Source: Actinomycetes bacterium
GTDB taxonomy: Bacteria > Actinomycetota > Thermoleophilia > BMS3ABIN01
Assembly: GCA_021790115.1 (NCBI GenBank)
Contig: JAJYIM010000007.1
Location: 1 to 56,572 of the forward strand
Reading direction: 5' to 3'
DNA: 56,572 nucleotides
This document shows positions 4,244 through 8,074 of the stretch, in pieces (position 1 is the first letter of the stretch; each line of letters starts with the position of its first letter). The notes under the pieces are model-generated. The model worked only from the letters and a program-made list of their open reading frames with translations. It did not search any database and was not told the origin of the DNA. Position numbers and translations under genes: made by a program.

Positions 4244-4657
4244 TTACTCAAATCCCAAATATGCAAGGAAGGCCAGGAAAACGGCGAACAGCACACCCAA
4301 TGCCACAATTGTGTGCAAGATCAGCCGGCCATACCTAAATCGCGTGTACTGCCTGTAAAAAAACGGAAAAATGATCAATATCGGCGGGAAGATCAAAAAG
4401 GACCAGGCAATGCCCACATTCTTGGGCACATATTTAAGAATCTGATAAACACTCAGGAAGTACCACTCCGGCTTGATGCCAGCCGGAGTCTTGAGCGGGT
4501 CGGCAGGCAGGCCCACCGGCACCGGCATCAGCGTCGCCAGGAAAATAAGCACCCCCATGATCAACGTAATCACGGCCAGTTCCTTGACGAAATGATCCGG
4601 GAGAAAAGGAACTCCGCCTTCGCCGTGGTCGCCGTTTCTATCATTATCAGGGCTCAT
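4244..4657 (-). CDS. petD: Cytochrome b6/f-type complex subunit IV
   Basis: A 137-residue protein equal to the C-terminal half of cytochrome b. It carries the Qo-site PEWY motif (63-66, in IKPEWYFLSVYQILKYVP) and three membrane helices at about 26-44, 78-98 and 108-132, as in split b6/subunit IV systems. The ATG at 4657 is chosen because AAGGAGA lies just upstream; a longer in-frame start would overlap the end of petB. It is the last gene of a coupled operon (haem c protein, Rieske, b6, subunit IV), 22 bp after petB. With b6 it forms the quinol-oxidising and proton-releasing core of the membrane complex. Confidence 0.93.
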   Translation of the reverse strand: MSPDNDRNGDHGEGGVPFLPDHFVKELAVITLIMGVLIFLATLMPVPVGLPADPLKTPAGIKPEWYFLSVYQILKYVPKNVGIAWSFLIFPPILIIFPFFYRQYTRFRYGRLILHTIVALGVLFAVFLAFLAYLGFE

Positions 4658-4679
4658 TACTCTCCTTAAAAATATAAAC

Positions 4680-5330
4680 CTAGAGCGGGTCTGCAATTCC
4701 CTGCTTGCGAATCATGTAAAAATGCGCCGCCAGGAAAGCCGACAGCACCACGGGCAGGATAACAACGTGAATGGCGTAAAACCTGGTCAGGGTCGCGTCA
4801 CTGATCTTCGCGCCCCCCAGCAAAAAATTCTGGATGTACTGGCCCACAAACGGCATTGCCCCCGCTATTTCGCTGCCAACTTTAGTGGCCCAATACGACA
4901 GCTGGTTCATGGGCAGCAGGTAGCCGGAAAAACCAAAGGTGACCGTCATGAAAAACAACAGCACACCGGTAACCCAGTTAAGTTCCCGCGGCGGCCGGTA
5001 AGCACCGTGGAAAAAGACGCGCAGCATATGAACAATGACCATGATGATCATGATGTTGGCCGTCCAGGCATGCAGGCTCCTTAAGATGACTCCAAAAGGC
5101 AGGTCATCGGAAATATGCAGCACGCTGGTGTAGGCGGAGGCGGTCGTGGGCTGGTAATAAAACGCTAGCAGAATGCCGGTTGCCACCTGCACCATGAAGC
5201 ACAGGAATGTAATGCCGCCAAAACAGTAAAGCCAGTTGACGTGATCAGGGACCCGGTGCTCAGCAAACTCCCGGGCAATGCGCCTGACATCTAACCGCTC
5301 ATCCAGAAAATCAACAACTCCCAGCCTCAT
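4680..5330 (-). CDS. petB: Cytochrome b6 (quinol:acceptor oxidoreductase cytochrome b subunit)
   Basis: A 216-residue, four-helix cytochrome b N-terminal half. The bis-His haem ligands are His87/His101 and His188/His203, the spacing seen in chloroplast b6. Cys36 in NWLYCFGGIT aligns with the Cys that covalently holds haem c(n)/c(i) near the Qi site of b6 and related Gram-positive complexes, so this is a true b6-type subunit, not a bc1 type. It starts with an ATGA overlap with the Rieske stop codon, showing translational coupling. The product ends in RKQGIADPL, close to the b6 consensus end. Confidence 0.96.
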   Translation of the reverse strand: MRLGVVDFLDERLDVRRIAREFAEHRVPDHVNWLYCFGGITFLCFMVQVATGILLAFYYQPTTASAYTSVLHISDDLPFGVILRSLHAWTANIMIIMVIVHMLRVFFHGAYRPPRELNWVTGVLLFFMTVTFGFSGYLLPMNQLSYWATKVGSEIAGAMPFVGQYIQNFLLGGAKISDATLTRFYAIHVVILPVVLSAFLAAHFYMIRKQGIADPL

Positions 5331-5806
5331 GAAGCAATTCCCTCCACATAAATAGCATTACCTTGAATTGAAGTTTTATATTTCGTCAACGGCTTCGGCG
5401 GGGGCCCGGAAATGTTTTTGCCGGTTTCATCGAATTTGCCGCCGTGGCAGGGGCAATGGAAAATATGGTTGTTTGCTTCCCACTTGACAATACATCCTAA
5501 ATGTGTGCAAACAAGTGAATAAGCGGCAAAACTCTTGTCCTTCAGTTGGATCAGCTCGGAAGGCACATCCTGATAATCAAAGCGGATGCCGGTGCTAGTG
5601 ACGTCACTTAGGTTAGCCACTTTAACCTTGGGGTATTCCTCCGGTTTAATCACCGGGTAGGCATACCTGACCAGGGGCGCCATAAAAGCGCCCAGGCCAA
5701 TTGCCGTCGCCAGCCCAAAGAGGAAACTTAAGAACCGGCGCCGGGTAACCTCCATTCCGCTGGGTTTTTCTTCCTCCGTCATAACTGTTTTGTCTGCCTC
5801 GTTCAT
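5327..5806 (-). CDS. petC: Rieske [2Fe-2S] protein of the b6-type complex
   Basis: A 159-residue protein with an N-terminal membrane anchor preceded by a twin-arginine-like segment (TRRRFLSFLFG, 21-31). Cluster-binding boxes CTHLGC (100-105) and CPCHGG (118-123) supply two Cys and two His ligands (Cys100, His102, Cys118, His121) plus the Cys105/Cys120 disulfide pair. It transfers one electron from quinol at the Qo site to a c-type cytochrome. Both ends overlap neighbours by 4 nt (ATGA), first with the haem c gene and then with petB, implying tightly matched synthesis of the complex. Confidence 0.95.
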   Translation of the reverse strand: MNEADKTVMTEEEKPSGMEVTRRRFLSFLFGLATAIGLGAFMAPLVRYAYPVIKPEEYPKVKVANLSDVTSTGIRFDYQDVPSELIQLKDKSFAAYSLVCTHLGCIVKWEANNHIFHCPCHGGKFDETGKNISGPPPKPLTKYKTSIQGNAIYVEGIAS

Positions 5807-6972
5807 TTTTTCCCCGGCAGCCTCCTGCGTCTCGGCTTCAGCACACCCTGGTGGAAGAGGAAGGTCAACAGGCTGGCGCTGGCGATCAGGTAAGCAATCC
5901 AGAGCGTTACCGGACCAATGCCGCGGCTGCCTGATGTTGTGTTCAGCACTTCCGCCATCACGACATAAATAGCATAAAGATCAGTAATGATGACAGCGGC
6001 CGCCAGGACGGCCGCAATCCAGCCTTCAAAAATGAATTTTTGCACTTTGGGATACGGCACCAGCGTCACCAGGAAGACGCCAATCACCAGGCCGAACATG
6101 CCCAGGGGCGCGGCGCTGGCCCTCTGCGTCTCCGTGGTTGCCGAAAAAGTCGGCTCTGTCGGGAAGTGACAGCTTTTGCATACTTTTGCCACAGTGGAAT
6201 CCTGATGACAGGCAAGACAGGTTTGCGGCTCAATCTTGTCATACATGACGCCGTTGATCACGCCGGGGCCGTGAGCCAGCCGCCAGTGGTTGTTGCGCCA
6301 GATTGCCGTGTCGATCTTGGGAACTCCCGGGTGCTGCCGGCCGGACAGCTTTATGGGGCCAAACAGGATGGGGGCCGTGTCGCCGGTGTGACAGCTGGCG
6401 CAAAATTCCGGCTTGGCCTCTGCCTGCGGCTGGTCGCTGATGAGATTCCCGTGCACAACACCCGAGTGGCAGTCGGCGCACTGGATCTGCGCCACGTTGA
6501 CATGGAAGTCGTGCGGGAACATGATCGTCCTGGTGGCTGGATTCGGGTCATACTGGTCGGTGACGGCAATTTTTGGATAGCTGGGCGCGTTCGCGTTAAC
6601 AACGTCCTGCGCATCTGGATACTGCGTGTTTTTTTCATTTCCGTGGCACTGCAGGCAAGCCGAACTGGTAAGCAAAGTGGTCGACGCCGGCGGACGGTTG
6701 TAAGTCCTGAAAGCATATTCGGTGAGTTTGATCAGGGAATAAACCTTGCCCCGGAAGTAACCAAGAACGCCGGGGTCAAAATGGCAGTCGATGCATGTGA
6801 CGCCGCGCTTTCCCATGTAGGAAGTCTTCCAGGTATCCACATAGGGCTTAATAATGTGGCAGCTTTCGCAGAACTGCGGAGAATTGGTTTTGTGTACGCC
6901 CCAGATGGTCAAACCGACAAGTCCCACGAACAGGACCAGCACCAATGAGGCTAAGATTGATCTACCCTTCAT
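5803..6972 (-). CDS. Heptahaem c-type cytochrome with NapC/NirT-like N-terminus and C-terminal membrane domain
   Basis: A 389-residue protein with seven CxxCH haem sites at residues 35, 60, 106, 165, 191, 252 and 265. An N-terminal anchor (6-26) followed by SPQFCESCH resembles the NapC/NrfH family. After the last haem come about three membrane helices (290-307, 315-340, 354-374) and a basic tail (KPRRRR). It is the first gene of the Rieske/b6/subunit IV operon and overlaps the Rieske gene by 4 nt. I infer that it replaces cytochrome f or c1 as the electron exit, or entry, of the complex. No haem-lyase or terminal oxidase gene lies nearby to show the final acceptor. The ATG at 6972 has AAGGAAG upstream. 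Confidence 0.9.
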   Translation of the reverse strand: MKGRSILASLVLVLFVGLVGLTIWGVHKTNSPQFCESCHIIKPYVDTWKTSYMGKRGVTCIDCHFDPGVLGYFRGKVYSLIKLTEYAFRTYNRPPASTTLLTSSACLQCHGNEKNTQYPDAQDVVNANAPSYPKIAVTDQYDPNPATRTIMFPHDFHVNVAQIQCADCHSGVVHGNLISDQPQAEAKPEFCASCHTGDTAPILFGPIKLSGRQHPGVPKIDTAIWRNNHWRLAHGPGVINGVMYDKIEPQTCLACHQDSTVAKVCKSCHFPTEPTFSATTETQRASAAPLGMFGLVIGVFLVTLVPYPKVQKFIFEGWIAAVLAAAVIITDLYAIYVVMAEVLNTTSGSRGIGPVTLWIAYLIASASLLTFLFHQGVLKPRRRRLPGKK

Positions 6973-7431
6973 TCATCTTCCTTGACAGAGGTAATTATAT
7001 TACATCGGTGAAAAAAGGCACAAGCGCCGGACGAAATTCTACACTCCGGGACAATATGGTGTCAAACCGATGCCAAACCTGAATGCAATAGCGGCATTTA
7101 CAGGTATTTTTTTAATTGAATCCTGCCGGCGCCGGTGACGGACTTTTTTTTAAATGACTTTTCAGATGAAAAAACTTAATAAACAAAATGGTAGGGCCAG
7201 CCGAATGGCTGCTTCTCAAGCCTTTTGAGATAGATTCTAAAGGACCGACGTGGAGTTCCGATGCATGATATAAATTTGCGCAAACTGAATATCCGGCTTG
7301 CAATCGAAGCGGCAGGGCCGCTATGATTGCCACGAGTAGCAGAACTGTTTCACTAGGTGACTAGGTGTTATATATGGACATCAATGGTATAATAAAAGTA
7401 AGATTAATTTGCACCCCGGGAGGTGACAGCG
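6973..7431. other. 459-bp intergenic region between divergent cytochrome and DUF192 units
   Basis: Besides the minus-strand -10 TATAAT at 6994-6999 (about 22 bp before the cytochrome start codon, without a clear -35) and the plus-strand promoter near 7352-7393, I see no convincing gene. Short frames here lack ribosome sites and recognisable content. A GC-rich palindrome CCGGCGCCGG near 7127 is followed by a T-run, but the stem is poor as a terminator. Confidence 0.5.
7352..7393 (+). promoter_or_regulatory. Extended -10 promoter with tandem 8-bp upstream repeats
   Basis: TGGTATAAT (7385-7393) is an extended -10 element with no recognisable -35. In the place of the -35 are two directly adjacent copies of ACTAGGTG (7352-7359 and 7360-7367). 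Direct repeats overlapping a missing -35 are typical of sites for an activator. The promoter drives the 40-residue peptide gene at 7432 and probably the DUF192 gene. Confidence 0.55.
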
Positions 7432-7579: not shown

Positions 7580-8074
7580 ATGCGGCCTTTCTTGTCCGTT
7601 GGCATCATAGCAGCTTGCATCGCAATCGTTATGTTGCCGGGGAATGGTTGCGGCGGCATTGTTGGCGCCCAGCTTCCCACCACTTCCACGCAGCAACAGC
7701 CTCACATCATATTACATGGCCGCCAGGACGTGCTTCTTACAGTTGAAGTCGCCTCCACTGCAAAGCAAAGAGAAAATGGCCTCATGGACAGAACTTCGCT
7801 GAGCCCGGATGATGGGATGATCTTCATTTGGGGTCATGATGTCCGCGAAGGCTTCTGGATGAAAGATACGCTCATCCCTTTATCAGTGGCTTTCGTTGCT
7901 GCCGACGGCATGATTGTTAACATCCAGGACATGGCCCCGCTGACACTCGATGACCACCGGCCGCCAGTGCCGTACCGTTATGCAGTTGAAGCTAACCAGG
8001 GCTTTTTTCCCCGCCATAGCATACAAGCAGGCAATAAAGTCAGCCTGGCCGGCATTCAGCAAGACTATAATTAA
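7580..8074 (+). CDS. DUF192 family exported protein
   Basis: A 164-residue protein with an N-terminal hydrophobic segment (about 4-19) that acts as signal peptide or anchor. It is followed by a DUF192 domain from about residue 42: RENGLMDRTSLSPDDGMIF, then FWMKDTLIPLSVAFV and a C-terminal YAVEANQGFFPRH. The nearby cysteine (LPGNGCGG) does not make a good lipobox. DUF192 is a small beta-barrel family, usually extracytoplasmic, of unknown biochemical role. Here it is downstream of a 40-residue membrane peptide and convergent with the sigma factor gene. A microsatellite-like AT palindrome (CAATAATAATAATTATTG near 8123) separates the two converging units. Confidence 0.88.
   Translation: MRPFLSVGIIAACIAIVMLPGNGCGGIVGAQLPTTSTQQQPHIILHGRQDVLLTVEVASTAKQRENGLMDRTSLSPDDGMIFIWGHDVREGFWMKDTLIPLSVAFVAADGMIVNIQDMAPLTLDDHRPPVPYRYAVEANQGFFPRHSIQAGNKVSLAGIQQDYN

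Follow-up and report, generated by a model that had tools for sequence, protein, structure and literature searches.

In respirations based on multihaem cytochromes, electrons usually enter through quinol dehydrogenases, without energy being conserved at that step. Rieske/cytochrome b complexes with multihaem c subunits are also on record: in the b6-type complexes of Kuenenia stuttgartiensis (Kuste4569-4574 and Kustd1480-1485), hexa- and octahaem subunits replace cytochrome f (PMC12954380), and the bc cluster of Geobacter (GSU2930-2937) encodes c proteins with 2, 10, 12, and 5 haems (PMC2825233). The latter paper also cites a tetrahaem c protein for other deltaproteobacterial Rieske/cytochrome b complexes, and in Methanoperedens pentahaem proteins belong to a Rieske/cytb cluster (PMC4683180). 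A previous reading of the DNA analysed here, made from the sequence only, was thus mistaken in stating that the c subunit of known b6 or bc complexes always carries one or two haems. Multihaem proteins were proposed as Rieske acceptors in early anaerobic bc complexes (as cited in PMC5317091). No heptahaem b6/Rieske complex of actinobacteria was found in the openly accessible literature; the Dethiobacter paper contained nothing on Rieske complexes. As far as seen in the open literature, new features are a heptahaem cytochrome that starts like NrfH and ends in three helices, the minimal set of four genes, the occurrence in actinobacteria, and a Rieske protein devoid of both Ser and Tyr.

Operon layout and the Rieske/b6/subunit IV core

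The operon occupies positions 4244-6972, on the minus strand, of the window (the whole stretch of 56,572 nucleotides that was analysed). Its four genes are arranged in the order heptahaem cytochrome, Rieske protein, b6, subunit IV, with 4-nt overlaps between the first two (5803-5806) and between Rieske and b6 (5327-5330), and with 22 bp between b6 and subunit IV (4658-4679). Coordinates, strands, overlaps, and gap all agree with the layout given in the sequence-only reading. The start of subunit IV was placed at the ATG that aligns with its homologues. The features of the operon and of its Rieske/b6/IV part are as follows:

5803..6972, minus strand: heptahaem membrane cytochrome c, 389 aa (NapC/NirT and Cytochrome_C7 Pfam matches above cut-off)
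5327..5806, minus strand: Rieske [2Fe-2S] protein, 159 aa (Pfam Rieske above cut-off)
4680..5330, minus strand: cytochrome b6-type subunit, 216 aa (Pfam Cytochrome_B above cut-off)
4244..4657, minus strand: subunit IV, 137 aa, with PEWY and without a fused c domain (Pfam Cytochrom_B_C above cut-off)
7036..7065, minus strand: promoter-like TTGACA-18-TAGAAT (consensus match only), ~64 bases upstream of the heptahaem start codon
5492-5509, minus strand: Rieske cluster motif CTHLGC
5438-5455, minus strand: Rieske cluster motif CPCHGG, then KF
4680..5330, minus strand: b6 subunit with haem-ligand His87/101/188/203
5223-5225, minus strand: codon for b6 Cys36, the position binding the extra haem in b6f
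4460-4471, minus strand: PEWY of subunit IV

With ligands for two bis-His haems, the PEWY motif of the Qo site, and the CTHxGC and CPCH motifs of the Rieske protein, the core has the marks of a Rieske/cytochrome b (bc/b6f) complex. The b6 of cytochrome b6f was the best solved match for the b6 subunit, and Cys36 and PEWY, both pointed out in the sequence-only reading, proved invariant across all aligned homologues. Like the b6f complex of cyanobacteria and chloroplasts, the operon thus combines a b6 that carries the extra-haem Cys with a split subunit IV containing PEWY and a Rieske protein; in contrast to b6f proper, cytochrome f is missing and a heptahaem subunit is encoded instead. The complex does not belong to the bc1/bcc kind, in which a single-chain b of 7-8 helices is combined with c1 or dihaem QcrC, because its b is split. 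With QcrABC of the Bacillus type and with monohaem relatives from the same class, the operon shares the split b6/IV, the order Rieske-b6-IV, and presumably the use of menaquinol; subunit IV of those complexes, however, carries a fused monohaem c domain, and the relatives from the class lack an equivalent of Cys36.

The gene make-up (b6, subunit IV, Rieske, and a multihaem membrane c protein) is that of the Kuenenia complexes, and on this level the two also resemble each other in having a b6-like four-helix b, a separate subunit IV, and an extra haem c on the negative side. The Kuenenia operons, however, additionally encode a putative NAD(P) oxidoreductase and, in one case, an HAO-like octahaem protein, whereas only four genes are present here; the Kuenenia subunit IV has five helices, in contrast to the short PEWY-containing one of the window. 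At residue 26 of subunit IV (window 4580-4582), which, judged from other complexes, lies near the place expected for the second ligand to the extra haem, the window's family has Glu and a second family of the same class has Phe.

The Rieske protein shows the motif CPCH[GA]G.F in 16/16 heptahaem operons checked, and therefore neither the Ser nor the Tyr that raise the potential of the cluster. The corresponding motifs are CPCHGG.Y (where found) in operons with a monohaem module, CPCH[GD]S.[YF] in those with a dihaem module, and CPCHQS.F in ordinary bcc complexes. In Kuenenia, the Ser is kept and potentials are +303/+335 mV (PMC12954380). Yeast Rieske mutants lose ~130 mV when the Ser is missing and ~65 mV when the Tyr is missing, in a roughly additive manner (PMC12954380). 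By comparison with these shifts, absence of both residues fits a low-potential chain, and the Rieske potential of the heptahaem complex is expected to be the lowest among the groups compared.

Haems, ligands, and membrane helices of the heptahaem cytochrome

The heptahaem protein contains exactly seven CxxCH motifs, and all of its 14 cysteines lie within them:

6166..6870, minus strand: span of the seven haem c motifs, at the residues given below
6856-6870, minus strand: haem motif 1, CESCH (residue 35)
6781-6795, minus strand: haem motif 2, CIDCH (residue 60)
6643-6657, minus strand: haem motif 3, CLQCH (residue 106)
6466-6480, minus strand: haem motif 4, CADCH (residue 165)
6388-6402, minus strand: haem motif 5, CASCH (residue 191)
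6205-6219, minus strand: haem motif 6, CLACH (residue 252)
6166-6180, minus strand: haem motif 7, CKSCH (residue 265)

When the letters of the protein were shuffled 20,000 times, 0.019 CxxCH motifs were obtained on average and two at most. All seven sites are kept across the 19 homologues, site 3 taking the form CxxxxCH in two of them. As claimed at the outset, three hydrophobic helices follow at the C-terminus (residues ~287-310, 317-340, and 354-374); they are helical also in an AlphaFold2 single-chain model built with the 19 homologues, in which mean pLDDT was 48.8 and only parts of helices exceeded 70. Together with one helix at the N-terminus, the protein thus has four membrane helices, and a basic tail (KPRRRRLPGKK) follows the last of them. 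By the positive-inside rule, both termini would reside in the cytoplasm and the haems outside. The three C-terminal helices distinguish the protein from its counterpart in Kuenenia, to which the likeness of the whole complex is judged from gene make-up.

The NapC-like anchor proposed in the sequence-only reading was borne out by the profile (PF03264, NapC/NirT N-terminal domain; 43.9 bits versus a cut-off of 24.1), and NrfH was the best solved relative: a membrane helix at the N-terminus is followed by two haems resembling those of NrfH, and then by a middle part with c7/NrfB-like multihaem sequence. What was not retained is the NrfH-type CxxCHxM feature, since all 19 homologues have Ile or Val at position 41, where NrfH has the Met that ligates haem 1. 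Besides this Met, NrfH has an Asp near the open side of haem 1; if the alignment offset is carried on, that residue (Asp89) falls on position 83, which is Leu. Thus, the likeness to the tetrahaem quinol dehydrogenases of the NrfH/NapC type extends, by profile, over the anchor and the first two haems, whereas seven haems, three additional C-terminal helices, the unconserved Met position, and the constant company of b6/Rieske genes set the protein apart from them.

Outside the haem motifs, exactly five His residues are invariant in the 19 homologues (154, 157, 174, 214, and 229). To these may be added residue 53 (window 6814-6816), which is Met in 15/15 proteins of the window's family and His in 4/4 of the second family; the exchange of one usual axial ligand for the other makes it a probable haem ligand, apparently switched between the two lineages. 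With these six candidates for second ligands, at least six haems would be served and one would be left without. Together, the seven His residues of the CxxCH motifs and the six conserved His/Met residues can thus make at least six of the haems six-coordinate, as in a wire for electrons.

Linkage, distribution, and exchange of the c module

Homologues were searched in 60 related genomes. Of the 19 genomes of the window's family, 15 have the heptahaem protein, as do three from the second family, one of which has two copies; this gives 19 full-length homologues in total. The sequence-only reading had put the origin of the DNA in an actinobacterial lineage, which is supported, and had asked whether the homologues always adjoin b6/Rieske genes. 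They do: the Rieske gene directly follows in 19/19 full-length loci, and the complete four-gene set is present in all 17 loci that are not broken by a contig end. Conversely, where the window's family yielded no b6 match (four genomes: G010, G012, G014, and G016), the heptahaem cytochrome was missing as well. A prevalence of homologues away from b6 genes, which would have spoken against a shared complex, can therefore be rejected. A survey of 396 genomes from across the phylum showed the protein in the two families only, and the five loci returned by a scan of genome contigs all belong to the window's own lineage.

Other multihaem proteins of the related genomes (4-17 CxxCH) were left out of the homologue count because their match was weak and mostly N-terminal, and because b6/Rieske genes of the same type were absent from the stretches read around them. 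In the genome with two copies (G057; L021/L047 on contig C26 and L022/L046 on contig C21), the two heptahaem genes differ while the starts of the Rieske genes look identical; one copy lies at a contig end, so that either the operon was duplicated or the assembly broke within a repeat.

Comparison of the flanks revealed the four genes as the only tight unit common to both families. Their other neighbours differ, and neither an NAD(P) oxidoreductase gene among the conserved neighbours nor a reductase gene adjoining the heptahaem operon was observed. Upstream of the operon, a divergent gene of the DUF192 type (window 7580-8074) is found; such a gene occurs near the operon in both families, at variable distance and, in the second family, not beside it.

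Relatives of the Rieske-b6-IV operon with other c modules occur in the same class. In families f2, f4, f6, f7, and f8, subunit IV is extended at its end by a fused domain with a single CxxCH; in family f3, the gene after subunit IV encodes a separate dihaem protein. As the same b6 core thus occurs with a fused monohaem, a separate dihaem, or a heptahaem module, the c module is, to judge from the genes, exchanged on one b6 core within the class. In the b6 tree, each module forms one clade (heptahaem 97/99, dihaem 100/99, monohaem 85/96), which corresponds to the fewest possible changes; the order among these clades is unsure because some long branches meet, as the program warned. Both the heptahaem and the dihaem group have the equivalent of Cys36; in the monohaem group, Thr takes its place. 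One b6/IV core with three c modules in one class offers a clean natural experiment on exchange of the output subunit.

In the heptahaem operon, the heptahaem protein is the only c protein; neither cytochrome f nor any other c module is encoded. Since relatives with the same core carry other c modules, this supports the earlier suggestion that it stands in for the usual c subunit. The protein might instead be a quinol dehydrogenase of its own, of the NrfH/NapC/TorC type, that is merely cotranscribed while the real c partner of b6 is encoded elsewhere. The NapC/NirT match and the kinship to NrfH would agree with this, as would an invariant Lys76, which falls on Lys82 of the NrfH quinol site when the alignment offset is carried on. 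The idea is weakened by Ile/Val at the haem-1 Met position and by Leu at that of Asp89 (same offset); furthermore, the b6 operon would be left without a c protein, whereas the related operons read have one, and the cytochrome is missing wherever b6 is missing in the window's family. We therefore regard an independent quinol dehydrogenase as unlikely, although the NapC/NrfH-like start could constitute a second quinol-oxidising site.

Proposed electron flow and candidate partners

The operon, then, probably encodes a menaquinol-oxidising Q-cycle complex of the b6 type, in which a heptahaem wire receives the Rieske electron. The four proteins would form one physical complex, although linkage of genes is not proof of a stable one. 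Menaquinol would be oxidised at a site on the positive side; one electron would return to the quinone pool via the b haems and probably also via the extra haem at Cys36, as in a Q cycle, while the other would pass through the low-potential Rieske cluster into the heptahaem cytochrome, whose haem chain would carry it on to partners in the periplasm or at the surface, such as molybdopterin enzymes and multihaem cytochromes encoded in the same genome or, possibly, an extracellular acceptor. Which of these finally accepts the electrons is a guess. With a heptahaem output built into a Rieske/b6 complex, energy would be conserved at the step from quinol to multihaem proteins, which suggests that an ancient proton-pumping engine of the b6 type can pass electrons directly to multihaem networks; Gram-positive bacteria could in this way couple a low-potential menaquinone chain to multihaem partners. 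In these little-known anaerobic actinobacteria, a relative of the photosynthetic b6f complex would have had its one-haem output subunit swapped for a seven-haem wire.

Candidate partners are encoded in the genome, which comprises 1.81 Mb and is 97.6% complete: 219 CxxCH-coding patterns were counted, compared with 54 in a reversed control. Two clusters for molybdopterin oxidoreductases of the PhsA/DMSO-reductase superfamily (L044:6130-12001 on contig C28 and L043:5772-10849 on contig C2 of G000, the window's genome) carry 6- to 7-haem cytochromes of their own, in one case together with an NrfD-type membrane subunit. A further cluster (L042:2631-10879, contig C52) encodes a 1369-aa beta-helix/Ig-like protein with six CxxCH motifs near its end, a 509-aa six-haem protein, an NHL-repeat protein, and a TPR protein; it is possibly a module for electron transfer at the cell surface. 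These clusters are plausible acceptors of the operon's electrons, and their presence agrees with the preferred reading, as does the absence of any match to the haem-copper oxidase family.

Complexes of the bc type are reversible, and electrons might also flow in the opposite direction: an external donor of low potential (a mineral, an electrode-like partner, or a syntroph) would reduce the heptahaem protein, and the proton motive force would drive reduction of menaquinone. A low-potential Rieske cluster would lower the barrier for this, and multihaem proteins with surface-type domains are encoded on contig C52. The genes, however, give no evidence of an external donor, nor of a conduit beside the operon, and the cytochrome bd quinol oxidase present in the genome shows that quinol also serves as a reductant, which makes reverse flow improbable. 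That the heptahaem protein is a terminal reductase (for nitrite, sulfite, or tetrathionate) built into the complex is less probable still: six second-ligand candidates for seven haems may leave one site open, and in Kuenenia an HAO-like octahaem protein accompanies one such complex, but the CxxCK motif is absent and profile matches were to the electron-transfer families c7, NrfH, and NrfB, with no catalytic family above cut-off.

Menaquinol oxidation through the heptahaem wire, as preferred here, may be carried further. Rather tentatively, the operon might represent a minimal low-potential Q-cycle enzyme of four subunits that gives the menaquinone pool a direct link to an extracellular or multihaem network, possibly in a reversible manner, with the heptahaem subunit held in place by its own three helices. 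The Geobacter and deltaproteobacterial complexes likewise join a Rieske/cytochrome b core to multihaem c proteins, several per cluster in Geobacter as opposed to the single heptahaem protein here. If this extended view were true, the enzyme would be a present-day case of those bc complexes with multihaem acceptors that were proposed as early anaerobic forms; a four-gene example renders that proposal (cited in PMC5317091) testable.

The same genome also harbours a canonical actinobacterial QcrCAB (L038:1119-4053, contig C18), comprising dihaem QcrC, QcrA, and QcrB with PDWY. This bcc complex is present despite the fact that the genome yielded no match to the haem-copper oxidase family.
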